Program-made: the position numbers and the translations under genes
Notes under the pieces: generated by a model
The model's database searches: none
Told to the model about the DNA's origin: nothing
Seen by the model: only the letters and a program-made list of their open reading frames with translations
From: Schlesneria sp.
GTDB taxonomy: Bacteria; Planctomycetota; Planctomycetia; Planctomycetales; Planctomycetaceae
Length of the DNA stretch: 64,000 nt
Reading direction: 5' to 3'
NCBI GenBank assembly: GCA_028291515.1
Contig: JAQGHU010000005.1
Span: 1-64,000, forward strand
Shown here: in pieces, positions 46,216 through 64,000 of the stretch
How positions within the stretch are numbered: the first letter of the stretch is position 1
Layout: every line of letters starts with the position of its first letter

Positions 46216-46302
46216 GGAGAGGTGACAGAGTGGCCGATTGTGCTGGTCTCGAAAACCAGTGTGGGTGCAAGCTCACCGAGGGTTCGAATCCCTCCCTCTC
46301 CG
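46216..46302 (+). tRNA. tRNA-Ser(CGA)
   Basis: Acceptor arms GGAGAGG (46216-46222) and CCTCTCC (46295-46301) pair perfectly and discriminator G follows. The anticodon stem CTGGT/ACCAG encloses a loop with anticodon CGA at 46250-46252. The long variable arm (GTGGGTGCAAGCTCACC type) is typical of serine tRNA, and the T-arm is GGTTCGAATCC. CCA is not encoded. The gene marks the start of the accessory region. Confidence 0.9.
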
Positions 46303-46315
46303 CTTGTGACTGACT

Positions 46316-46437: not shown

Positions 46438-47820
46438 ATGCCCTCACTGAAGCTAGCGTCCGCAACCAAAACTGCCTCCAAATCGCCGAAAAATTCCAGC
46501 CAATTTCGCATTGGAAAAGTCCAAGGGTACCTCCGGGGCAGCGTGTGGTATCTCTACTATCACGAGCAGGGTCAGCGCCGACGTCCTCGCGTCGGCCCAG
46601 ACCTTGAAGTCGCTCGGCAGATGGCGGCCCAGATCAACAGCCAATTGGAGACCGGAGCACCGGCCGCTCTCTCCTTCGAAGCCATCTCAATTGTGGATCT
46701 TCGAAATCGCTGGCTGGCCCATCATGAACACGTGCTACGATCATCCATCGCCTCGATCAAGCGCTACCGAGCCGCCACGGAGCATTTGATCCGGTACATC
46801 CAGAACGTGAAGCCGGTCAAACTCGCCTCTCATTTTCGGACGAGTCACGCCAAAGACTTCGTCGGTTACTTGAGGAACATTCGAGTGTCGCCGAATGGAC
46901 ATCCGAAATCGGCGAAGCGTCCGCTCCTAGACAAGGGGATTCAGTACATTCTCGAAACCTGCAGGACTCTCTTTGCATATGCGATGAAACGGCGCCATCT
47001 GTCGCCGTACGCAGAGAATCCCTTTAGCGCGATGGAACTTGGGCGACTCCCGATTGAGCATGTCAAGCCGATCGTTTTGCTGACGGAAGAGCAGAAAGTC
47101 GAGTTTCTGAAGGCTTGCGATGGGTGGCAGTTTCCGGTGTATGTGACCTTGATGCTAACCGGCCTTCGTCCCGGCGAACTCGTGCATCTGCTGTTGCCGG
47201 AAGATCTCGATTTTGAGCAGCGACTTCTGTTCGTTCGCAACCGCATCAATCTCGGCTGGCAGGTTAAGACGCGAAATGAGCGCACGATTCCGCTGCTGCC
47301 ATGCCTCGTCGACATCCTGAGACGCCTGATCGGCGAACGGAATCGAGGACCTGTCTTCGTGAGGCGACTGTTTCAGATCGACAACCTGCCCTCGTGGGCG
47401 AGCACTAGGCCCGCAGAGTTGGAACTGAGTAGGCGCATTCTCAAATTTGAATCGGAGAGCGGTGACCACGTCACACGAACAAAGCGTGCTCAGTTGTCGC
47501 GAGGCCTATGGAACGAAATGGGGATCGTGGAAACGGATCGCATCAGAATCGAATACATGCGCCTGACCAAAATGATCGGCCAACCTGAACTCACGGCACC
47601 TAAAACCCTACGTCACCTGTTCGCGACGGCCTTGCAGGACGCCAATGTCGACCCACTGATTCGTAACGAGTTGATGGGCCACACTGCAGCCAGCGCGATT
47701 GGTGGCAACAGCCTCGGCATGACTGCAAACTACACGCACACTCGCATCGAAACTAAGCGAAGGCAGCTTGAACAAGCATTCGAAAGAAGCTCGGTTGTCC
47801 ACTATGTCCATTCGCGCTGA
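46438..47820 (+). CDS. Tyrosine-type integrase
   Basis: A 460-residue integrase with an N-terminal DNA-binding part and a C-terminal catalytic domain. Catalytic positions: Arg in LTGLRPGEL, then the KTLRHLFAT block (Lys at the first His position of HxxR, with Arg and His retained), MGHTAAS for the second His, and the Tyr nucleophile in TANYTHTRIE. A GGAG site lies upstream. Its position 136 bases after tRNA-Ser is the usual arrangement for a tRNA-targeting island integrase. I could not find the matching right-hand attachment copy inside this window. Confidence 0.9.
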   Translation: MPSLKLASATKTASKSPKNSSQFRIGKVQGYLRGSVWYLYYHEQGQRRRPRVGPDLEVARQMAAQINSQLETGAPAALSFEAISIVDLRNRWLAHHEHVLRSSIASIKRYRAATEHLIRYIQNVKPVKLASHFRTSHAKDFVGYLRNIRVSPNGHPKSAKRPLLDKGIQYILETCRTLFAYAMKRRHLSPYAENPFSAMELGRLPIEHVKPIVLLTEEQKVEFLKACDGWQFPVYVTLMLTGLRPGELVHLLLPEDLDFEQRLLFVRNRINLGWQVKTRNERTIPLLPCLVDILRRLIGERNRGPVFVRRLFQIDNLPSWASTRPAELELSRRILKFESESGDHVTRTKRAQLSRGLWNEMGIVETDRIRIEYMRLTKMIGQPELTAPKTLRHLFATALQDANVDPLIRNELMGHTAASAIGGNSLGMTANYTHTRIETKRRQLEQAFERSSVVHYVHSR

Positions 47821-49615: not shown

Positions 49616-51958
49616 TTACCGTCGCCGAATTGCGAAAAGGCGTCTTTGATTTGTTAGTCTTTTGAAGCGATGATGCGCCAAAGGTTTGACACTTGCTGTC
49701 TCGATTGATAAACTGAGTCTACGGAACGATTTATATATTTTATACGCGTCGGAGACGCCGGCTGCGAGTACCTGACCTAAGACACCTCTTGCATCATCTA
49801 GAAATTGCGAGAGCTCGGAATGGGCGAAAGTATGCAGAGTCACTTTAAATGCAAACGTTCGACTTAGTCGCTCACGAATTTTCTCGTTGTAATTTTCTTC
49901 TGCTGAGTTCTCACGAAACAGCTGAAGCGCCACCCTTGCCTTTTTAGGTGAGCCGGAAAGCAAATCGGAAAAGCCTTCAAACCCACTTTGAACCCGTACC
50001 CCGGGCGTCTTCCCAGTGTCTCTCGGGTTGATGGCGATTTCCCTAATCTGAAGATCATGGCGACTGTCTTTGGCCTTCAGAACATAGATTGCTTTGTGCA
50101 TCTGATCGTTCAGATAGATATGCTGCAGGATCAGGACGTTCTCGCAAATTGCAGACACCCCCTCCGGTTCCGGCACTAGTGACCGATCGTGTGGGGTCAA
50201 TTCATAGGTCGCGAAGATTGTTGGACGCGCGCGGCCTGCGTCGAGGTCGACATAAGCATTTTGAAGGGTTCGGAGAAGTGCGGTCACAATTCCGGTTCGG
50301 GATGCAGGCTCGACGCATTTGATCAATTCGGCAAGACCATCAATTGCTACTCTCTCAACACGACGCGCGCGGCAGATCCAACGTAGTTCGAAGAGCAATC
50401 TATTGATGTGCAAGCTCGCTGGCGATGCGTAGATCAACGAAGCACACGCCAGTAGATCTGCCAGATCCCCTGACGTGCGTTTAAATCCTTTGATCGCTGA
50501 AGCTTCGCCCTCAAAGCTCAGGAACAGAGTGGGACCATAAAAAGCATACGCTCGATTCTTATCCTTCCAGTTTTCTCCCCGGGAGGTTGTTTCAGCCCTA
50601 TAAGCCTTGATTCGCGCGGTCTTTGCATCTGAAAGACAGAAAACGCCGTCCTCATGAATGTTGCCAGCAAGAAATTGAATCGAAATCCAGGACTTCAACG
50701 TTCCCGACGAGCCAAGCAACAGGGTCGTCTCGCCTTGACGCAGACCAGGAGTCCAACTCGCGCCATCATATCGCTGTGCCCATTTATCGGGGCGACTCCA
50801 ATACTCGGTGTCGCCTTGCAGCAGTTCATCGAGACCAGGAGTACCACTCCATATATAGTTGTGTGAGCTCTCTGGTGTAGGTGGCGGACCAGCTTCGACC
50901 GGATCAGCTCGGGCAGACTCCAGATATGTCGACCACTGGGGGTAGATCACGATTGTCGCGGCATGAGGAAGTTGGCTACGCGGACGTTCCGGCGGAAAAC
51001 GTCGCTGCACTGCATCTGCGGATATCTGGCCGGGTGATAGATATTCGGCGGAGCTATTCAACGAAACGTCTCTCGCCGCGCCCAATTGCATTTCCCTGTA
51101 CTCCCATAAGTACCTCCTCAAATCGCTGTCGAAGAATAGGGATTCATCAGTTGCAGCGGTGTAAAAATCCCATGTATGCTCACCAGCAGCCATGTAAGTG
51201 CCGTGCGATTTGACTATATCCCAAGTGCGAACCCGGCGTCCTCCGGGTGCCTCTCGGTACCCCAGACGAAACACATAATCTGCTACATATTGCTCAAGAG
51301 GCGTATCGTCGCAGCGACCCGTCGAGGATTCAGTGATTAGGAACACCAAGCCAAGGTCTTTGTCGAATTCCGTTTCAAGTCGTTCGAGAAAGTCTTCAGT
51401 GAGCCGTCGACGTTCGCCGGAAGTTGAAGCGTCACGAAGCAGGCCCGACAGGCTGTCGACGACGATTAGGGATGAGTGCCCCCGCCGATCCGGTTTGCGA
51501 CGATATTCCGATATTCCGCGGAAGATGTCGTTGATCTGCTCTCCGCTGCTGGGCAACGGTCGATCCGTCCTTGCACGCGGTAATTCTGCGAAAAAGAGGT
51601 TGTCTTTCGTGAATGGATGACCAGAGTCCGAGGCCACAGGACTTTGGATCTCGTTGAATCCGTCAAACCAGCCAAATTCCGCATGGTTCTTAAAAAGTCG
51701 CTCTTTCGTGACTTCGGTGCTTAAGTAGTACATCAGATTTGCAGGGAATGGCATCAATGCCCGACAGATAGCGAGCGTAGCCGCCGTTTTCCCAGACCCT
51801 GGTGGTCCTTCTATGACGATGGATGATTTTCGACGAAAACCAATCGTCGGTGCTGTAGCCGAATCGAACGCGAACAGCGATTGACCAAACAACGCTTCTA
51901 AGCCTGGAATCGCCGGGAAAAAGTGGTCGACGTGGGAGGTGCTAGCACTATCGCTCAT
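49616..51958 (-). CDS. Tandem KaiC-like RecA-fold ATPase
   Basis: I start at the ATG at 51958, which begins with SDSASTSHVDHFFPAIPGLEALF, the usual KaiC-like opening; the frame extends to 52018. Two RecA/KaiC-like domains are visible. Domain 1 has Walker A GPPGSGKT (residues 51-58), the Walker B-like SSLIVVDSLSGLL and WDIVKSHGTYMAAGEH. Domain 2 opens at PGLDELL and has GSSGTLKS, a Walker A with Leu in place of the Gly before the Lys, then AIDGLAELI and KAKDSRH. The C-terminal 130 residues are helical and unlike KaiC. Family members act in circadian, signalling and defence settings; no partner is certain here. Confidence 0.75.
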   Translation of the reverse strand: MSDSASTSHVDHFFPAIPGLEALFGQSLFAFDSATAPTIGFRRKSSIVIEGPPGSGKTAATLAICRALMPFPANLMYYLSTEVTKERLFKNHAEFGWFDGFNEIQSPVASDSGHPFTKDNLFFAELPRARTDRPLPSSGEQINDIFRGISEYRRKPDRRGHSSLIVVDSLSGLLRDASTSGERRRLTEDFLERLETEFDKDLGLVFLITESSTGRCDDTPLEQYVADYVFRLGYREAPGGRRVRTWDIVKSHGTYMAAGEHTWDFYTAATDESLFFDSDLRRYLWEYREMQLGAARDVSLNSSAEYLSPGQISADAVQRRFPPERPRSQLPHAATIVIYPQWSTYLESARADPVEAGPPPTPESSHNYIWSGTPGLDELLQGDTEYWSRPDKWAQRYDGASWTPGLRQGETTLLLGSSGTLKSWISIQFLAGNIHEDGVFCLSDAKTARIKAYRAETTSRGENWKDKNRAYAFYGPTLFLSFEGEASAIKGFKRTSGDLADLLACASLIYASPASLHINRLLFELRWICRARRVERVAIDGLAELIKCVEPASRTGIVTALLRTLQNAYVDLDAGRARPTIFATYELTPHDRSLVPEPEGVSAICENVLILQHIYLNDQMHKAIYVLKAKDSRHDLQIREIAINPRDTGKTPGVRVQSGFEGFSDLLSGSPKKARVALQLFRENSAEENYNEKIRERLSRTFAFKVTLHTFAHSELSQFLDDARGVLGQVLAAGVSDAYKIYKSFRRLSLSIETASVKPLAHHRFKRLTNQRRLFAIRRR

Positions 51959-52219
51959 GAGAGAGGAGCCAGTTTGGGTAAGCAAGGTTGAATGGGAGTG
52001 TGTATGAATTAGCCACAATAGACCGCAGTGTATTTACCTGCAACTCTTCTCAGGCAACTTTCTGAGAAACTGAAACATTTTCTTGTTGAAATATACAGGT
52101 AATCGATGATTCGATCTGCCACCGAATATTGTCGTACATCTAGCCACAATCATTTTGAAAAGGTGTCGTAGCTTTCATGCAGACTTCTCGACGTTCTTAC
52201 CACGATCGGCGTTCCGACT

Positions 52220-52967: not shown

Positions 52968-54134
52968 ATGACAACCTTCAACGCGTCTATGAAGTGGAGA
53001 TCCTCATTAATGGGCTCAGAGATTATTGGAGCTTACCACGTGGCGACATTTCCAGGATGGGAGCGCGTCGTCGTCGCGCAGTGCACTCGCCTTCGAAACA
53101 GCGGCCTCCTCGACCTGACCTGCCATATAGTTGTTGGAGTGGTCGGAGAGCGCGAACCGGCCGTCTCAACAATCGAACGCCTTCTCGATGGTAAAGCGCG
53201 AGTTACCTACTGTGGCGACATCACTGCGTTCGAGTTCCCGACATTGCAGTTGTTATACGAAGCTGCAGCAAAAACAGATTCATTTTCTTGGTATATACAC
53301 ACAAAAGGGATTTCAAGTCAGAGTCTGGGGGCCGAAAATCACCGCCTGTGCATGGAATCAGTCGTAATCGACAACCATGAACTTTGCTACGATACACTGA
53401 GGAATTATGACGCCTGTGGTCCAGGTTGGCGTACCGATGGTTTTGATCGCACAAATCCTCACTTTGCAGGAAATTTCTGGTGGGCTAGAACGAGCTATCT
53501 CAGGACACTAGTTTCACCTAATTCGCTCGACCTTGGTGATCGGTATCAGGCCGAATTCTGGATTGGAAAGAGTGATCGCATCCGGCCCTTTTGCTTGGAA
53601 TTATCGGATGTTCCCATCACACTCTCGTCTGACCCCTTTGCGAAACCAAGTGCGTGGGTTGGACTCGAACATTATTATCAACAACTCTGTGAGATTGAAG
53701 ATCCATTGGCAATCAAACGTGTAGTCGACATCGGAGTCGACTACGGGTTTTCGACATTTCATTTTGCTAAGGACTTTCCGGCGGCTGATATTGTCGGAGT
53801 GTCGGATTTCAGACTGCACTTGGATTCCGAGATGTGGGTCCGCCGACATTTGGAGCAATTTTCAAATGTCCGCCTTTTGGTTGGAGACTCTCCAACTGTT
53901 GGAGCGGCTTTTAGTGAACCCATCGACATTCTGCACCTCGACGGCGATCATTCCTACGAGGGAGTAAAAAAGGATTTTGAAGCGTGGGTCAATTGCCTTA
54001 AACCAAATGGACGAGTGATTTTTCACGATACGCAATCTTTTGATTCGGTTCGTCAGTTTTTCAACGAATTGCCTGGCCGTAAGAAGGAAATCCACGAACA
54101 TCACGGATTAGGGTGCTGGTTCAAACAGGGTTAG
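52968..54134 (+). CDS. Glycosyltransferase-like domain fused to a class I methyltransferase
   Basis: The N-terminal half (residues 1-225) carries WYIHTKGIS and a later FAGNFWWARTSYL segment, as found in capsule/LPS-type glycosyltransferase-related proteins that act on surface glycans. The C-terminal half (about 240-388) is a SAM-dependent methyltransferase of the Methyltransf_24 type: VVDIGVDYGFSTFHFA for the SAM site and LHLDGDHSYEGVKKDF and GRVIFHD. The start is not certain; ATGs at codons 8 and 15 are possible. It begins a run of five co-directional genes. Confidence 0.75.
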   Translation: MTTFNASMKWRSSLMGSEIIGAYHVATFPGWERVVVAQCTRLRNSGLLDLTCHIVVGVVGEREPAVSTIERLLDGKARVTYCGDITAFEFPTLQLLYEAAAKTDSFSWYIHTKGISSQSLGAENHRLCMESVVIDNHELCYDTLRNYDACGPGWRTDGFDRTNPHFAGNFWWARTSYLRTLVSPNSLDLGDRYQAEFWIGKSDRIRPFCLELSDVPITLSSDPFAKPSAWVGLEHYYQQLCEIEDPLAIKRVVDIGVDYGFSTFHFAKDFPAADIVGVSDFRLHLDSEMWVRRHLEQFSNVRLLVGDSPTVGAAFSEPIDILHLDGDHSYEGVKKDFEAWVNCLKPNGRVIFHDTQSFDSVRQFFNELPGRKKEIHEHHGLGCWFKQG

Positions 54135-54168: not shown

Positions 54169-54765
54169 ATGCCAGATCGTCTCGTACCAAAGATCATCGA
54201 CTCGATCAACATTGCAGGAAGCGACAATGTCGCTAGTTTCGGGGGCCTCTACGAGGGAGGTTACCATATACAACATTCTCCACAGGAGTTTGCGCAACTC
54301 GTGTGCCTCTTGGCGGCGCTAGGTCCATTTTCTGCGTATCTCGAGATTGGAACTGCAGCAGGCGGAACAATTCGATTTCTGAATGACCATATTCAAATCG
54401 ACAGGAATGTGGTCATCGACGACGGGACGCACCCAAAAGCGCACTTCTGGGCAAGCCAGAATCGGCACTGCGTTCCCAATGTGGTCGATTTCATCGGCGA
54501 CAGCCATTCTCCCGAAGCTGCACACTTCTTGAGCGAACTCGGTCTTGAGTTTGATCTAGTTTCAATCGATGCGGACCATAGTTACTCAGGGGCTGCGGCG
54601 GATTGGAACCTTATCCAAGATTATACACGGCCGGGAGCCATTGTGTGGTTTCATGACATCCTCGCTTGCGACGGGGTCGCGGCTTTATGGAATGAACTGA
54701 AAGTTCAACAAACTGTATTACTCGAAACTGATCAGTTCGGAATTGGTGTGCTTAAGTTGCAGTAA
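54169..54765 (+). CDS. Class I SAM-dependent methyltransferase
   Basis: A 198-residue Methyltransf_24-type protein. The SAM-binding motif is YLEIGTAAGGTIRFL and the later strands carry LVSIDADHSYSGAAADW and GAIVWFHDI. It resembles the C-terminal half of the upstream fusion protein, so the two may be paralogous. A GGAG site lies upstream and it follows 34 bases after the fusion gene. Confidence 0.8.
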   Translation: MPDRLVPKIIDSINIAGSDNVASFGGLYEGGYHIQHSPQEFAQLVCLLAALGPFSAYLEIGTAAGGTIRFLNDHIQIDRNVVIDDGTHPKAHFWASQNRHCVPNVVDFIGDSHSPEAAHFLSELGLEFDLVSIDADHSYSGAAADWNLIQDYTRPGAIVWFHDILACDGVAALWNELKVQQTVLLETDQFGIGVLKLQ

Positions 54766-54795: not shown

Positions 54796-55614
54796 ATGAC
54801 GTTGCGTGGCAAACGAGCCCTCGTCACCGGTGCCGGGACCGGGATCGGTCAAGCGGCGGCGTTGGCGTTTGGCAGAGAAGGGGCTTCGGTCGTCTTGCAC
54901 TATTGCCATAGCAAAGACGGTGCAATCGCGACAGCTTCGCAAATCAACTCGCTCGGCGGATCTGCTACCTGCGTGCGCGCCGATTTTAGGAGGTCAGATG
55001 ACATGGTGGCTTTGGCAGAACGAGCATTAGACGTTCTGGGAGGGGTCGATATCCTTGTCAATAACGCTGGAATCACCATGAATTTGCCCGTTGGCAAAGT
55101 TACGATGGAACATTTCGACACGCTCTATTCGGTAAACGTCAAAGCTCCATTCTTTCTAACACAATCGCTCTTGCCTGCCCTTCTGAATTCCAAAGGCTGT
55201 ATTGTTAACACGACATCAATTCATGCTTACGAAGGTATGCGAGAACACTCGGTCTATGCCGGCACGCGTGGCGCGATCGCTTCATACACCAGACAACTGG
55301 CGATCGAATTAGCTCCGCACGGAGTCCGCGTGAACGGCGTCGCCCCAGGGTGTGTTCCGGTTGAGCGATATTATCGCTCGATCCCCGATTTTGACGCGGA
55401 TGCGGCCGGACGTACGATTCCGGTCGGACGCGTTGGAACCCCAGAGGACATTGCGGAAGTTATTCGCTTCCTTTGCACCGACGCGGCCCGCTTTATTGTC
55501 GGCCAGACACTGATAGTTGACGGCGGTTCGACATCTTGGATGCCATTCCTCGAAGAAGATTTTGGGGGCAAACTGCCCTATCAATTTGGCAATGAGTATG
55601 TGCCGGGAATGTGA
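54796..55614 (+). CDS. Short-chain dehydrogenase/reductase with altered active site
   Basis: A 272-residue SDR. NAD(P)-binding TGAGTGIG is at residues 11-18 and NNAG at 89-92. The catalytic Ser141 and Tyr154 are present, but the YxxxK motif reads YAGTR, so the lysine is Arg158. The rest (VRVNGVAPG, then FIVGQTLIVDGG) is regular. The Lys-to-Arg change may weaken or alter activity. It starts 30 bases after the methyltransferase gene. Confidence 0.88.
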   Translation: MTLRGKRALVTGAGTGIGQAAALAFGREGASVVLHYCHSKDGAIATASQINSLGGSATCVRADFRRSDDMVALAERALDVLGGVDILVNNAGITMNLPVGKVTMEHFDTLYSVNVKAPFFLTQSLLPALLNSKGCIVNTTSIHAYEGMREHSVYAGTRGAIASYTRQLAIELAPHGVRVNGVAPGCVPVERYYRSIPDFDADAAGRTIPVGRVGTPEDIAEVIRFLCTDAARFIVGQTLIVDGGSTSWMPFLEEDFGGKLPYQFGNEYVPGM

Positions 55615-55666: not shown

Positions 55667-56389
55667 ATGAATACTCGCTTCAATCCAACAGCGAATGGAC
55701 AACTGCATCTTGGACATCTGTATCTGATCCTGTTGAATCAACGAACCGCGAAGAAATCGGGCGGGCGTTTTCTCGTCCGATTTGATGACGACCAACCACA
55801 CTGGATTCAATCAATCGGAAAGCAGGGGGTCGCCGACAGCTGCCAGTCGATCATTGAAGATCTTGATTGGATGGGAATCGACGTCGACGGATACAGCTAT
55901 CAAAGCCGAGAGCGTGAAGCGAATGAACAGTTCATCAAAGATCTTCCTGGAATTCGTCCTCTCTCGGTCTCGGGGTATGGAGCGCCGCCGATGATCGTGA
56001 GTTGTGATCGTCCGTATCCTTATGTCCCGTATCTCACCGCGATCAAAGTGGCGCAGGATTATCGTGAGCAAGTCGACTGCGTCATTCGTGGTGACGATCT
56101 GATCAGCGAATTCTCGCTCTACTGTTATTTCTGTGAGCGATTGAGCATCCCTATTCCAACGTTCTTTTACGTACCCAAACTCCTCTACCAAGGAGATGAC
56201 TTGACGGATGTCTCAAAAACACGCGGCAATTTTAGAGTCCGCGATTTGAGAGCAAAAGGGTTAACGCCACAGACGATGGTGTCGATCCTGGCAACAGCCT
56301 GCCTCAAAGTTCCCAAAGGCGAATGGTCATTCGAGAATATCAAACAGATTCCGGCACTGACATCAGAGGATTTTAGCCGATGGGTGTGA
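55667..56389 (+). CDS. Free-standing GluRS-like catalytic domain (class I aminoacyl-tRNA synthetase paralog)
   Basis: A 240-residue protein whose whole length matches the glutamyl/glutaminyl-tRNA synthetase Rossmann core. TRFNPTANGQLHLGHLY (residues 3-19) carries the HIGH motif as HLGH (14-17), RFDDDQP follows, VIRGDDLISE (139-148) matches GluRS VIRGEDHI, and the KMSKS loop is TDVSKTRGN (180-188). The anticodon-binding domain and zinc-like insertion are missing. It could activate glutamate or another amino acid and load it on a tRNA or another acceptor, like GluQ-RS. Context suggests a glycan or metabolite rather than translation. Confidence 0.85.
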   Translation: MNTRFNPTANGQLHLGHLYLILLNQRTAKKSGGRFLVRFDDDQPHWIQSIGKQGVADSCQSIIEDLDWMGIDVDGYSYQSREREANEQFIKDLPGIRPLSVSGYGAPPMIVSCDRPYPYVPYLTAIKVAQDYREQVDCVIRGDDLISEFSLYCYFCERLSIPIPTFFYVPKLLYQGDDLTDVSKTRGNFRVRDLRAKGLTPQTMVSILATACLKVPKGEWSFENIKQIPALTSEDFSRWV

Positions 56390-57381
56390 TGATGCTTGAC
56401 TACGGTCACAGTTTTGATCGGGAATCGTTGTCACGACTCGCTGATGCCGGTTGCAAAGATATTCTTCTCTTCGACTACTGGTGTGAACACGAACCTGAAG
56501 AGGGACGTTTCACTTTCGATCCACTTTTGGAATATTCGAAGACTGTTCGAGAACTTGGGATGTCTCTGCGCGTGCAAACTCCAGTTGGAGTGCCGTTGTG
56601 GTGTCCGAGAGACTGGTTCTTGACAAACGCTGAGGGAGTTCGGAGCGACTTTTACGACGCAGAAGTTCGTTACCGGATGCCTCTAACTGAACCGCTCACC
56701 TACGAGTACACCATCACTCGAGCAATCAAGACGCTATCTTACTGGAACGCGGATGCAGAGGCACACCTTGTCGAATACGTCCGCCGTCTGCGGCAAGCCG
56801 TGGAATCTGAGAACGCCACTTGTATCTGCTCGATCGGAAGTTGTGGCGAGTATCTTTTTCCTCCTGTCTATTTCTACCCATTTTTAGGCGCCGAGGCATC
56901 GCCTTGGTGGTTCGATGAGGGTGCCGAGCGATCTTGGCTGGGCTATTGCGAAGGTCGTGACGCACCTGATCGGTCAGCCTGGTTGCTGGGACAACTGGGT
57001 GAGATCACGCAGAGACGCTTAAGCCTTTTCGATGAAAAATGGCTTCAGTATGTCCCGTACTATCAAGGTTGGGGAAATTTTGGCAACGACAACGTTGATG
57101 TCGTTCTCGACCAAAATGCGAATCATCTACGGACCATATTGTTTTCCGTTTTTCACCTCAATTTCCCCGACATCGCGACTGTGCAGGCAGCGAAGTTTCC
57201 GACTTGGGGAGGTGCGGAAGGCGCAGCGAATATCGTGACCAATAGTCGTCGAGCCTACGAACTAGGTCTCAAAGGTGTCGTGTGCGGGCCTCTCTGGTTT
57301 AACTATGCCAGTGGCATGGAGACATGGATGTACGAGGAAATTCGCAAAGCAAATGAGTATTGGGAGGCCATCGAGTCGTAG
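56380..57381 (+). CDS. GH-A-like TIM-barrel protein
   Basis: A 333-residue protein overlapping the aminoacyl-tRNA-synthetase-like gene by 10 bases, so the two are probably translationally coupled. The N-terminus resembles GH42/GH5-type glycosidases: DAGCKDILLFDYWCEHEPEEGRFTFDPLLEY. A later SIGSCGEYLFPP carries an E at the usual acid/base position after strand 4, and WMYEEIRKANEYW ends it. No signal peptide is visible, so it works inside the cell. The family link is by pattern only. Confidence 0.65.
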   Translation: MGVMMLDYGHSFDRESLSRLADAGCKDILLFDYWCEHEPEEGRFTFDPLLEYSKTVRELGMSLRVQTPVGVPLWCPRDWFLTNAEGVRSDFYDAEVRYRMPLTEPLTYEYTITRAIKTLSYWNADAEAHLVEYVRRLRQAVESENATCICSIGSCGEYLFPPVYFYPFLGAEASPWWFDEGAERSWLGYCEGRDAPDRSAWLLGQLGEITQRRLSLFDEKWLQYVPYYQGWGNFGNDNVDVVLDQNANHLRTILFSVFHLNFPDIATVQAAKFPTWGGAEGAANIVTNSRRAYELGLKGVVCGPLWFNYASGMETWMYEEIRKANEYWEAIES

Positions 57382-57440: not shown

Positions 57441-58331
57441 TCAGCTGGCCTGCACCGTAGGTTGTGGAGTTGCTGATCCGGTTCCGTCGCCAGCCCCTTG
57501 GTTAGGATCCTGAAAATCAGCAAGGGAATAGTTGAGCCCCCACTCCAACGCTTGATGATGGTAATCTTCGCTAGTTCTGGAATCATGCCAAAGGTAGAAC
57601 GGCGACTTCTCACATCGATCTGTCCCCATCAATGTCCAAAGGGCGTATCCAGTTCGAGATTCTGTCATTGGATGCGCCGCCCTCCATCGCTCTGCACGTT
57701 GCGAGTTCAATCCTTCGAGACGACGCGCAAACTCATGAAGATAGCCCTCCACGAACACGCCGCGCGGCCGATGAATGTAACTCCACAAGTCGTTTAGGAA
57801 CACCTCTTCACCCCATTGTGCGACAGCTAAACCGAGACACTCCGTGCGAAAGCCAAAATCGAATGTCGTGGTATAGCTGCAGAATGTGGCATATTGCGAC
57901 TCCATCGCGAGCGATGAAAGGCTCTTCGTCCAATCCGTTAGAAAGATCCAACGACGCGATAGCTTGGTCATAAGGTCCACTCCCCGTGCCTTCGCCCAGA
58001 CGAGGCCTCCCAAGAATGCAGTTAGATCACCAATGCAGGGTGGTTGTCGAACGCTGTTGCTTTCAAAGTCACAATCATAGCTACGGCAGAGCGATCGAAG
58101 CGTGTCGCGTTGGTGGCTTCCATCGTCATGAACCAACAACGGTACTCCCGGATAGAAACGACGGCGAGCTTCTAGTTGAAGGTGAATGTAGGGGAGGGCC
58201 GCGAATGTGCCAATGACGACACCGATGTTTGGCGGCCTCTGGAATAGATCATCGATGGTTGTTGATTGCTGAACCAACTTGTGATTGTTCCAGTCTTGCA
58301 TGATCGCGAACTCGTCCGCCGCAACAGTCAT
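57441..58331 (-). CDS. Glycosyltransferase-like protein, hypothetical
   Basis: A 296-residue protein convergent with the previous cluster. IGVVIGTFAALPYIHLQLEARRRF and LLVHDDGS look like the first strands of a GT-A fold; MTKLSRRWIF follows. GAGGGGCG lies just before the ATG. No full GT motif set (DxD) is clear. The end is a low-complexity Gly/Thr/Pro tail. Likely to act with the cluster at 52968-57381. Confidence 0.55.
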   Translation of the reverse strand: MTVAADEFAIMQDWNNHKLVQQSTTIDDLFQRPPNIGVVIGTFAALPYIHLQLEARRRFYPGVPLLVHDDGSHQRDTLRSLCRSYDCDFESNSVRQPPCIGDLTAFLGGLVWAKARGVDLMTKLSRRWIFLTDWTKSLSSLAMESQYATFCSYTTTFDFGFRTECLGLAVAQWGEEVFLNDLWSYIHRPRGVFVEGYLHEFARRLEGLNSQRAERWRAAHPMTESRTGYALWTLMGTDRCEKSPFYLWHDSRTSEDYHHQALEWGLNYSLADFQDPNQGAGDGTGSATPQPTVQAS

Positions 58332-58975: not shown

Positions 58976-59836
58976 TTACGTGGCGTCCCGCTCAACAATT
59001 CTTTGCAATTCCAGCGAAAACTTTGTTAATTCTCTGCTGGAAACAATTCCTCTCGCTCCTGCATAGCTACGTCCAACTCCCTCTGTATATCCAACATTGA
59101 TCCAAATGGACATCGTTAGTTCGGATTCATCTGGAGCCGACGAAACAATATCGAAATCTTCAAAAGCGAGTTCAAACCCAAGCTCCAAGGGAACGAAAAC
59201 GTCAACACCGCTGCAAGTTGACGTCGCAACTCCCTGCCGCCGATGATGACGGCCAACGGCTGGTCCAGCTTTCAACTGACAGCGGCCAGAGCCCACCGGT
59301 TTGTTGGTGGTTTCGCCCACCAGTGGAATGTCGGCCACGATGCGATCGAGCAGCCGGGGATCTCTCAACAACCGTAACGCCTCTTCGACTGCCAGTTCCA
59401 TCGCTTCGTGAGTCATGAACGTCTTGCGATGTCGGGCGGAATACAGATCAAACGTATACACGAACAGGCCCCTGTCGGTCGATGCCAGCAAATTCACTCG
59501 AAGCATGTTCGAGGTCTTTAATCCATACCGAATTGCCAATGAGCCAACGAAAATCCCATCATCTCGTTGGGCTTCAACGTTCGGCGACAGCGAATCAATG
59601 AAGCTCCGAGCAACATCGAGCTTGCCTGCGGTTTCGATGAGCGTTGCCATTTCCGGCAGATGCGAATGCACTATCGGCGTAAATTCTCGTCGCCAGCCGG
59701 ACGCCAGCGTCTCCTGTACGATGGCCTCAACAAATGATCCCTCGCCCTGCTGTTTGCCAACGCCCAGCCCGTCCTGAAGTGCTGCGAGCAAAGGGTCAGC
59801 CCGTCTGTTCTGATGCCCCAATTCGTCTGCGAGCAA
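58976..59836 (-). pseudogene. Decayed partial copy of the primase-like gene joined to an immunity-like tail
   Basis: The middle part (MLRVNLLASTDRGLFVYTFDLYSARHRKTFM, then ALRLLRDPRLLDRIVADIPLVGE) repeats the neighbouring primase-like protein (62058-64000). About 40 residues are missing between its two Glu-Glu pairs. At about 59300 the homology passes into another frame, where LAAVS is followed by a TGA. The last 75 residues (VFVPLELGFELAFEDFDIVSS ... GYTEGVGRSYAGARG ... ELTKFSLELQRIVE) are unrelated and resemble small polymorphic-toxin immunity proteins. The N-terminal 90 residues match nothing I know. The start is a TTG. Confidence 0.6.
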
Positions 59837-62057: not shown

Positions 62058-64000
62058 TTACGACGACGCTGTTTCCATGTTCTGACACTCGTTCTGAACC
62101 TGATTGACGGGACAATCGCCGTTTGTGTCGGATTGACAGGCGGTTCCGTCGATTTGTTCGATCCGACCATCCCCCGACTTGACCCCGACCGAGGGCCGAC
62201 CAACCCCCGACTTCTCAGCGATTTGCCCCGACCGCCTGCGTCGTAGCTGATCTACGTCGATCAAATCGGCGAAGAACTTCGGTCCAGATTCGATTGGCAG
62301 TCCGTGCAGTAGTTCGTAAACGAACGACTGGCCACGACCACCCCGATGGACCAGCAGATACTCCAGTTCGACCAGTCGCTTGAGATGGACTTTCAGTTGT
62401 GTGTTGCCCCAACTGGTGTGATCCCGGACATCCCGGCGACTGAACCGATAGTCGCTGCGATCCGTTCCCTGTCGTTCACAAACACCATTCACCATCGCTT
62501 CAATCATGTTGAGCAGCCTTTGAGACTGTGGCGGCAGATCATCTGCCGACTTGCCCAGCACTTCGCTGGCCAGTCGGTTAGCCACTTCAATGTCTTCCAA
62601 CGTGACTTCGATGTAATGCACGTCTTCATCGTGATGGACCGTGGATCGGATCGGGCGTTGATACTGGTGCAGCAACGCCACGGCCCGGATCAGCGTCAGA
62701 TACTTGAGATGATCCCGGCGTGTGCGGGTCTTGGTGTTCAAGAATGTCAGGTCTTTGGCGAAGGGGTTGGCGACCAGCAAAGGCCGTAGCAGACGCTGCG
62801 AGTTGCGATGCAGCGCCAGCACCTGCTGGTGATCCTGCCGGGCCAGCAAGCCTTGCAGCGTCTGGCGTTCCCGCTGTAACCGATGAATGGCCCGCGTCTG
62901 TTCCCGGTCTTCATCGACAGACAGGACAACACATCGGTTCAGCAATTCTTCGTCGATCTTGATGGCTGTAGTGGTCAGGAAGATCATGACCGGACCTTCA
63001 ACACGATATGTCTGCGTCACCAACCGACCACTGGAAACATCCTTCCCCGTGCTGGCGATCATCAATTCCCGTTCGCTCTGCAACAGCTTCAACGCATAGC
63101 TGGCACGTTCTGCCCCTTCCTCTTCGACGATGGCCAGAATCTTGTGCTTCAAGTCTCCTTCACCCATGTAATACAACGACTGGCCTGTCATCGCTGAAAA
63201 CTTCACTTGGTCTTCGCCCGGCATCAGGGACAATACCGCTTCCATCAGCGTTGTTTTCCCTGCCGCCGATGACGACTGGATGATGACGGCCAACGGTTGG
63301 TCCAGCTTGCGGCTGACAGCGGCCAGATAGCCAACAAGTTTGTTGGTGGCTTCGCCAACCAAAGGGATATCAGTCACGATTCGGTCCAGCAATTTCGGAT
63401 CACGCAACAATCGCAACGCCTCTTCCTTCTCTTGAGGCGTCATCGTGGGCAGGATTTCCTTCGGTTCCAGTGCGGACTTGATTTGCTGGTCTTGAAGCTC
63501 TTCCAGTTTCAATAGCACTCGTCCCAAATCCTTCTTGATGACCTTTTCCTCAATGACCAGTTCCGTTGCCGCTTGTGTGATGAAGGTCTTTCGATGCCGG
63601 GCCGAATACAAATCGAATGTATCCACGAACAATCCCCAGTCGGTCGATGCCAGCACATTCACCCGAAGCATGTCGTAGGACAGATTCTTCGCAGTCCCAC
63701 GAACCCGATAGCGACGATGGCCAATGTTCAGCACAACTTCATCCCGCTGGTCGTCTGACTGCTCCGCTTCGATGTCTTGAGGCAACGCAGGCATCAGGCT
63801 GGGCGTGGAAGCCACAGGCTGGATAGGCAATGGTGTCGCATCCGCGACGCCGGGCACTGCGGGGGAATCAGTTTCGCTGCCATCCGCCCTGGGCTTCGAC
63901 AGGGCGACAGCTAATGCTGCCTGCTGTTTCCCCTTTCCCAGCCATTCGGCTTTGCGGATCAATGCTCCCAAGGCTGCGGCGGGATCTTCAAATTGTCTGG
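62058..64000 (-). CDS. P-loop primase/helicase-like protein, 5' end beyond the window
   Basis: The frame is open to the window edge, so the N-terminus (in related proteins probably a CHC2 zinc-finger primase part) is outside. The visible 640 residues include an MLRVNVLASTDWGLFVDTFDLYSARHRKTF domain and an AAA-type ATPase core: the P-loop VIIQSSSAAGKTT with AVLSLMPGEDQVKF, then ILAIVEEEGAER (Walker B-like), IFLTTTAIKIDEELLNRC (sensor 1) and an arginine-finger region. A winged-helix-like C-terminus (YRFSRRDVRDHTSWGNTQLKVHLKRL) ends it. A partial decayed copy lies at 58976-59836. Confidence 0.8.
   Translation of the reverse strand, partial: RQFEDPAAALGALIRKAEWLGKGKQQAALAVALSKPRADGSETDSPAVPGVADATPLPIQPVASTPSLMPALPQDIEAEQSDDQRDEVVLNIGHRRYRVRGTAKNLSYDMLRVNVLASTDWGLFVDTFDLYSARHRKTFITQAATELVIEEKVIKKDLGRVLLKLEELQDQQIKSALEPKEILPTMTPQEKEEALRLLRDPKLLDRIVTDIPLVGEATNKLVGYLAAVSRKLDQPLAVIIQSSSAAGKTTLMEAVLSLMPGEDQVKFSAMTGQSLYYMGEGDLKHKILAIVEEEGAERASYALKLLQSERELMIASTGKDVSSGRLVTQTYRVEGPVMIFLTTTAIKIDEELLNRCVVLSVDEDREQTRAIHRLQRERQTLQGLLARQDHQQVLALHRNSQRLLRPLLVANPFAKDLTFLNTKTRTRRDHLKYLTLIRAVALLHQYQRPIRSTVHHDEDVHYIEVTLEDIEVANRLASEVLGKSADDLPPQSQRLLNMIEAMVNGVCERQGTDRSDYRFSRRDVRDHTSWGNTQLKVHLKRLVELEYLLVHRGGRGQSFVYELLHGLPIESGPKFFADLIDVDQLRRRRSGQIAEKSGVGRPSVGVKSGDGRIEQIDGTACQSDTNGDCPVNQVQNECQNMETASS

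Follow-up and report, generated by a model that had tools for sequence, protein, structure and literature searches.

A mostly phage-borne family of GluRS-like catalytic cores lacking tRNA-binding parts, with a possible role in acid activation for a phage glycan module

The protein family described here shares with GluQ-RS (YadB) a derivation from GluRS, the lack of an anticodon domain, and an ATP site next to an acid site with two arginines. GluQ-RS works on tRNA and retains the pocket tyrosine as well as the acceptor-arm insert, in which the E. coli enzyme binds zinc according to PMC4381286, whereas our family has lost both. With bacterial GluRS, including insert-deleted versions, the family has in common the catalytic core, an R141-type (GluRS-like) pocket residue, and the HIGH and KMSKS motifs. 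However, it is about half as long, has no anticodon domain, and has a pocket that is rebuilt at positions 6, 123, 127 and 148. GlnRS-type references carry Asn10, His17 and Asn24, as does the family, but they have Cys at position 141 and Glu at position 8, where the family has Arg and Ser/Thr.

Synthetase cores that operate outside of translation are few, and they have tended to reveal new chemistry. Synthetase-derived enzymes that make amino-acid amides or esters are known, MshC and others among them. For these non-translation ligases, the likeness to our family would be a class I synthetase core working on a small acceptor, though MshC descends from CysRS, not GluRS. With respect to phages, virion glycosylation was reportedly treated by Freeman et al. 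in 2023, with phage-encoded glycosyltransferases said to decorate the virion. We know of no synthetase-like enzyme or sugar importer in phage virion glycosylation.

The gene under study lies in a window of 64,000 nucleotides, by which we mean the whole stretch of DNA that was analysed. The relevant features are as follows.

46216 to 46303, plus strand: tRNA-Ser(CGA) identified with ARAGORN, the probable integration site of an island
46438 to 47820, plus strand: phage-type integrase of 460 amino acids (PF00589)
52968 to 54134, plus strand: protein of 388 amino acids with a C-terminal Methyltransf_24 domain (Pfam) and no Pfam match on its N-terminal part
54169 to 54765, plus strand: second Methyltransf_24 protein, 198 amino acids (Pfam)
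54796 to 55614, plus strand: SDR oxidoreductase of 272 amino acids (Pfam and NCBIfam)
55667 to 56389, plus strand: GluRS-like catalytic core of 240 amino acids with an ATG start, acceptor-arm insert and anticodon domain absent
56380 to 57381, plus strand: TIM-barrel partner of 333 amino acids, GH35/GH14/GH42-like in its predicted fold
57441 to 58331, minus strand: protein of 296 amino acids, glycosyltransferase-like by inspection only, with no Pfam, NCBIfam, PHROG or PADLOC match

A first-pass annotation had described the product of 55667-56389 as a GluRS-like catalytic core with the motifs HLGH, DVSKTRG and VIRGDDLISE. All three motifs were found (HLGH at residues 14 to 17), and PF00749 matches the protein with 80.8 bits (Pfam cut-off 23.4; E=1.1e-22) in two stretches, the best of which covers residues 2 to 92. 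GluRS chains in the PDB are matched with E=3.6e-13 by the single sequence and with E=1.3e-23 by the family profile; the product is homologous to the GluRS/GlnRS catalytic core, far above chance. Its ATG start agrees with the relatives, whose N-termini read MNTRFNP or similar. The best NCBIfam score is that of the GluQ-RS model NF004315, at 83 bits versus 63 for the bacterial gltX model TIGR00464, with the second GluQ-RS model, TIGR03838, at 56 bits, and all three are below their cut-offs (250, 290 and 277, respectively). The core is a member of PF00749 that falls outside GluRS and GluQ-RS by model score and by domain content.

The same annotation was right about the missing anticodon domain, but this is not the sole loss. 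Residues 3-93 and 126-209 of the core align to residues 14-98 and 193-274 of H. pylori GluRS, and 32 residues lie between the aligned blocks, compared with 94 in the H. pylori enzyme. Hence, with about 60 residues fewer, the core has also lost the greater part of the acceptor-arm insert; in T. thermophilus GluRS, the insert comprises residues 101-150 (PMC4381286). The proposed structure comparison placed the fold closest to GluRS. An AlphaFold model from a nine-sequence alignment reached pLDDT 84 and pTM 0.82, with pLDDT below 50 at residues 102-114 only, and in a Foldseek search of the PDB the best 50 of 262 matches (E at most 0.001) were GluRS or GlnRS, with GluQ-RS at rank 28. The TMq was 0.75 to GluRS 1j09 as opposed to 0.59 to GluQ-RS. 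Matches of the model to cytidylyltransferase-like phage proteins were weak (E of 0.04 and worse).

Relatives of the core come from viral sequences. A first search of IMG/VR turned up two relatives of full length, with 47 and 44% identity across residues 1-231. The alignment search found 21 viral contigs with relatives, 19 of them matching over most of the length at 36-47% identity, and motif scans gave six more contigs, all within these 21 loci. In the nine-sequence alignment, identity to the window's core protein is 34-45%. Loci, mostly IMG/VR contigs, are denoted by L-numbers (L036, L068 and so on); the nearest relatives of the window's core are L036 and L037. Some core genes are identical (L058 and L059; L060, L061 and L062), L074 and L075 are cut by contig ends, and L072 is cut at its 3′ end. 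Our table of 17 distinct members includes the window and leaves out the duplicates L058, L060 and L061 as well as L074 and L075. These members measure 219 to 252 amino acids and contain nothing beyond the catalytic core, and thus no anticodon-binding domain. That the gene is a fragment or pseudogene was rejected, because its relatives are intact and equally long, and purifying selection acts on them.

Single-sequence and motif scans of the genome_contigs collection gave no bacterial relative of the core; such scans depend on the exact match of short motifs and may miss copies that are rare or divergent. Among 392 genomes of the phylum, including the window's own, 357 had matches to the core, and besides the own gene the matches listed were all in open frames of at least 317 amino acids, the size of GluRS, GlnRS or GluQ-RS. 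Plasmids held no relative of the core. Named phages held no match to the TIM-barrel partner and no core-family member: the hits there were incomplete, or came from ordinary GluRS/GlnRS proteins or from the GluRS of LR745206. Ordinary phage synthetases such as the GlnRS of Escherichia phage D6 and the gltX of an Acinetobacter phage do exist in named phages and were rejected as members. The 285-amino-acid GluRS-type protein of LR745206.1 (L080 8004-8861) was likewise rejected, because it has GluRS-type motifs and lies outside the family clade. It is encoded in a phage record of 634,780 bases and also lacks the acceptor-arm insert. A search of the open literature with strict terms found no paper describing this GluRS-core family, which apparently is undescribed so far and mostly phage-borne.

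For comparison we used 35 reference proteins (33 with the N-terminal part) from genomes of the window's phylum, some of them nearly identical, whose labels as GluRS, GlnRS or GluQ-RS-sized were assigned by length and residues rather than annotation. In a tree of 210 columns, which took in one huge-phage GluRS besides these references, all 17 members form one clade (support 1.0) that stands apart from GluRS-type, GluQ-RS-sized and GlnRS-type proteins, and within which the window's core groups with L036 and L037. The dN/dS ratio was 0.056-0.167 in five of eight pairs, one of them near saturation with dS above 2, and dS was not estimable in the other three. The core family is under purifying selection.

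Conservation of the active site, on which the idea of an activating enzyme had been made to depend, is found in 16 or 17 of the 17 members. Arg4, Asn10, His14, Gly16, His17, Asn24, Asp41, Trp68, Thr124, Asp131, Arg141, Gly142, Glu148, Tyr152 and the HxGH motif are kept throughout, positions 40 (D/E), 8 (S/T), 6 (N/S) and 127 (K/R) alternate between two residues, and the KMSKS lysine and Cys156 are each present in 16 of 17, with L037 having lost the SK motif. Judged by this conservation, the ATP motifs are intact across the family. The acid pocket, whose positions were assigned by sequence alignment only, presents a mixed picture. At position 123, which aligns with the pocket tyrosine, all 35 references have Tyr or Phe and none of the 17 members does, whereas Lys/Arg at 127 and Glu at 148 occur in every member and in no reference. 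In GluQ-RS, according to PMC12736043, glutamate is contacted by Arg9, Ala11, Ser13, Glu45, Tyr172 and Arg190, with two Arg and the Tyr binding its side-chain carboxylate and the Ala acting through its backbone. Of these six contacts, four are the same or alike in our family by alignment (both Arg, S/T and D/E), Ala is replaced by Asn or Ser, and the Tyr is lost in 17/17. The site still looks suited to an acid with an amino group, but rebuilt, partly kept and partly changed; because the pocket Tyr is lost in all members, the acid may be one other than glutamate.

The ORF of the partner, from 56380, overlaps the core ORF by 10 bp. Its predicted TIM-barrel fold is supported by the model (pLDDT 82) together with Foldseek matches to beta-galactosidases and beta-amylases, enzymes of the GH14 and GH42 groups. 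Beta-galactosidase chains are also hit by the profile of the partner family, with a best E of 3e-7. The GH42 model PF02449 scores 13.3 bits with the window's partner, below the cut-off of 21, and among homologues it gives 35 bits for the L052 member, 20.6 for the L047 member and no match for three others. Glu157, after strand 4, is present in 18/18 proteins, and position 280, after strand 7, is Glu in 11/18, Gln in 4/18 and another residue in 3/18; with this second catalytic Glu varying between proteins, some members may not act as hydrolases.

The TIM-barrel family is present in 15 of 22 loci (21 phage loci plus the window), and in 15 of the 16 loci whose sequence continues for 2.5 kb or more downstream of the core; in 8 of these 16 the ORFs overlap, as they do in the window. 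The exception is L036, which has another gene in the partner's place. In L037, which is cut by the contig end, the gene after the core weakly resembles that of L036 (22% over 88 amino acids, E=3e-5 for that one comparison). These two genes, located at L034 5516-6571 and L035 8721-9296, showed no relation to the TIM barrel in hhalign and are perhaps an alternative partner family. A reciprocal test with one TIM-barrel subgroup, a small sample with search patterns drawn from the same sequences, found four loci, all on contigs already known to carry the core gene.

To describe the neighbourhoods, 365 proteins were clustered from the ORFs around the 21 loci and from the window from 44 kb onward; ORFs were longest-ORF calls, with the core genes of L066 and L069 taken from match coordinates. 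The five-gene neighbourhood proposed at the outset is not conserved in the 21 phage loci, and what recurs is the core with its overlapping TIM-barrel partner. Glycosyltransferase-like clusters are frequent (c2 in 15 of 21 loci, c5 in 11), and importer genes of the RbsABC type, unusual cargo for tailed phages, comprise a permease in 13 loci, a binding protein in 12 and an ATPase in 6, with one or two members per cluster checked against Pfam. The permease carriers are L057-L062, L065, L067-L071 and L073, most of which have the binding-protein gene too, and these importer genes lie beside or within the head gene block. Further sugar-related genes occur in single loci, namely a DegT aminotransferase, a weak NTP-transferase match and a GT17 protein in L048 (same contig as L065), and a nucleotide-sugar dehydratase-like protein in L073; L067 has a methyltransferase. 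Behind the core/TIM-barrel pair at L045 12500-17673 (same contig as L063) there is another importer type, consisting of an SBP_bac_1 binding protein and two permease-like ORFs, along with a melibiase-like protein. In L058, L059 and L068, the flanking genes are a head-protein cluster on the upstream side and, on the downstream side, the c6-c10 cluster with its head-tail adaptor and neck proteins, and in L036 a Phage_cap_E gene lies just upstream of the core. L036 and L037 have neither a glycosyltransferase cluster nor an importer. ARAGORN, run on 15 of the 21 family loci and on six other stretches from these contigs, found no tRNA gene. The homologs do not stand alone near tRNA-modification genes, an arrangement that had been named as speaking against a non-tRNA role; many are found among glycosyltransferases, sugar-nucleotide enzymes and importers.

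In the window, the neighbours named in the first-pass annotation were largely borne out, in that both methyltransferases, the SDR and the overlapping TIM barrel are as described. No ORF of the 21 phage loci is homologous to either of the two methyltransferases or to the SDR; in some of these loci there are methyltransferases or an epimerase belonging to different families. No window gene besides the core/partner pair clustered with phage loci. The pair sits on a probable integrative island that begins with the tRNA-Ser(CGA), 9.4 kb upstream of the core, and the integrase; G+C is 0.50-0.53 at 48-62 kb, lower than the 0.54-0.59 of the bins that precede 48 kb, and a search for a second att copy or the far end of the island found neither. 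The same island encodes, at 49616-52018 on the minus strand, a protein that resembles KaiC, contains two KaiC-type stretches and is up to 800 amino acids long. The minus-strand ORFs 58976-59836 and 62058-63971 share homologous protein segments and fall into one cluster, which suggests a partial duplication on the island. A defence system was considered and rejected: PADLOC matched neither the core gene nor its partner, and its single match was mad2 (E=2e-7) in the methyltransferase region of 52968.

We put at about 0.5 the probability that the core is an acid-activating enzyme of phage type, descended from GluRS, which belongs to a phage glycan module and no longer acts on tRNA. Since the tRNA-binding parts are lost and clusters for sugar handling are the usual company, the acid is probably activated for a use other than protein synthesis. 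The core would bind ATP and a glutamate-like acid, with the carboxylate on Arg4 and Arg141 and the amino group on Asp40, and would convert ATP and an acidic amino acid or a relative of it to an acyl-adenylate. The acyl group would then be transferred to an acceptor (a sugar, a glycan or a small compound) on which the partner and the glycosyltransferases would work; that it is an amino acid which is activated and a sugar which receives it, we infer. In phages the product would most likely end on the virion, because the module, where visible, lies in the head gene block, and in the window's genome the two-gene core sits on the integrated island, beside methyltransferases and an SDR. Against this reading we count that L036 and L037 lack sugar clusters and the partner, that L037 has lost the SK motif, that the pocket Tyr is gone, and that the partner's second Glu is variable. 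The activating step outside of tRNA that the first-pass annotation had envisaged is supported in part, by the preserved active site, the lack of tRNA genes in the 15 loci and the sugar genes, and not in the five-gene setting it had been given.

With glycosyltransferases nearby, sugar-nucleotide enzymes in single loci and HxGH in 17/17 members, one may ask whether the protein is instead a HIGH-superfamily nucleotidylyltransferase put to a new use, which would make a nucleotide-activated sugar or sugar acid and not an acyl-adenylate for transfer. The weak fold matches to cytidylyltransferase-like phage proteins point the same way. However, sequence and fold are closest to GluRS, and the family keeps the carboxylate-holding Arg pair and the KMSKS Lys, which nucleotidylyltransferases would not need; we therefore regard this as unlikely.

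It is somewhat less likely again that the core still acts on tRNA, either as a minimal GluRS or as a relative of GluQ-RS that glutamylates queuosine or another modified base. The GluQ-RS model gives its best NCBIfam score, though far under the cut-off. PMC4381286 reports the insert to be absent in 7 of 212 bacterial GluRS, such that its loss alone does not exclude a tRNA role, but here the anticodon domain is missing as well. A vacancy could exist in the host, whose genome encodes a TGT enzyme and has no GluQ-RS above the cut-off of one model; yet it owns GluRS-type and GlnRS-type genes. Furthermore, in the tree the core belongs to neither the GluRS nor the GluQ-RS-sized groups, no member has the pocket Tyr, and no tRNA genes accompany it in the 15 phage loci scanned.

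More doubtful still is a free small molecule, i.e., an amino-acid amide or ester such as a signal or antibiotic-like compound, as the product in place of a decorated glycan. Enzymes of the MshC sort provide a precedent, the window's pair lies beside two methyltransferases and an SDR, and the nearest relatives have no glycosyltransferase cluster, but the c2 glycosyltransferase in 15 of 21 phage loci and the head gene blocks, where visible, argue against it. Phages do carry decoys, and L037 is without the SK motif, but a non-catalytic protein that has kept the fold alone, and that binds a host factor or acts as a decoy for it, is very improbable given ATP-site residues in 16 to 17 of 17 members and low dN/dS.

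An acid-activating enzyme of a phage glycan module may be part of a larger scheme, which we advance tentatively: in tailed phages, a tRNA-independent aminoacyl synthetase, its partner and glycosyltransferases would couple an amino acid, or an acid akin to one, to a glycan on the virion or on the infected cell. A sugar importer encoded by the phage would supply them, and a bacterium would have acquired the two-gene core on an island. If true, this would be an aminoacyl synthetase born from GluRS through the loss of its tRNA-binding parts. The family is a synthetase clade with pocket residues of its own and with links to a defined partner and to the sugar genes of phages; it bears on what becomes of a GluRS core without tRNA and on why there are sugar importers in the head gene block of phages.
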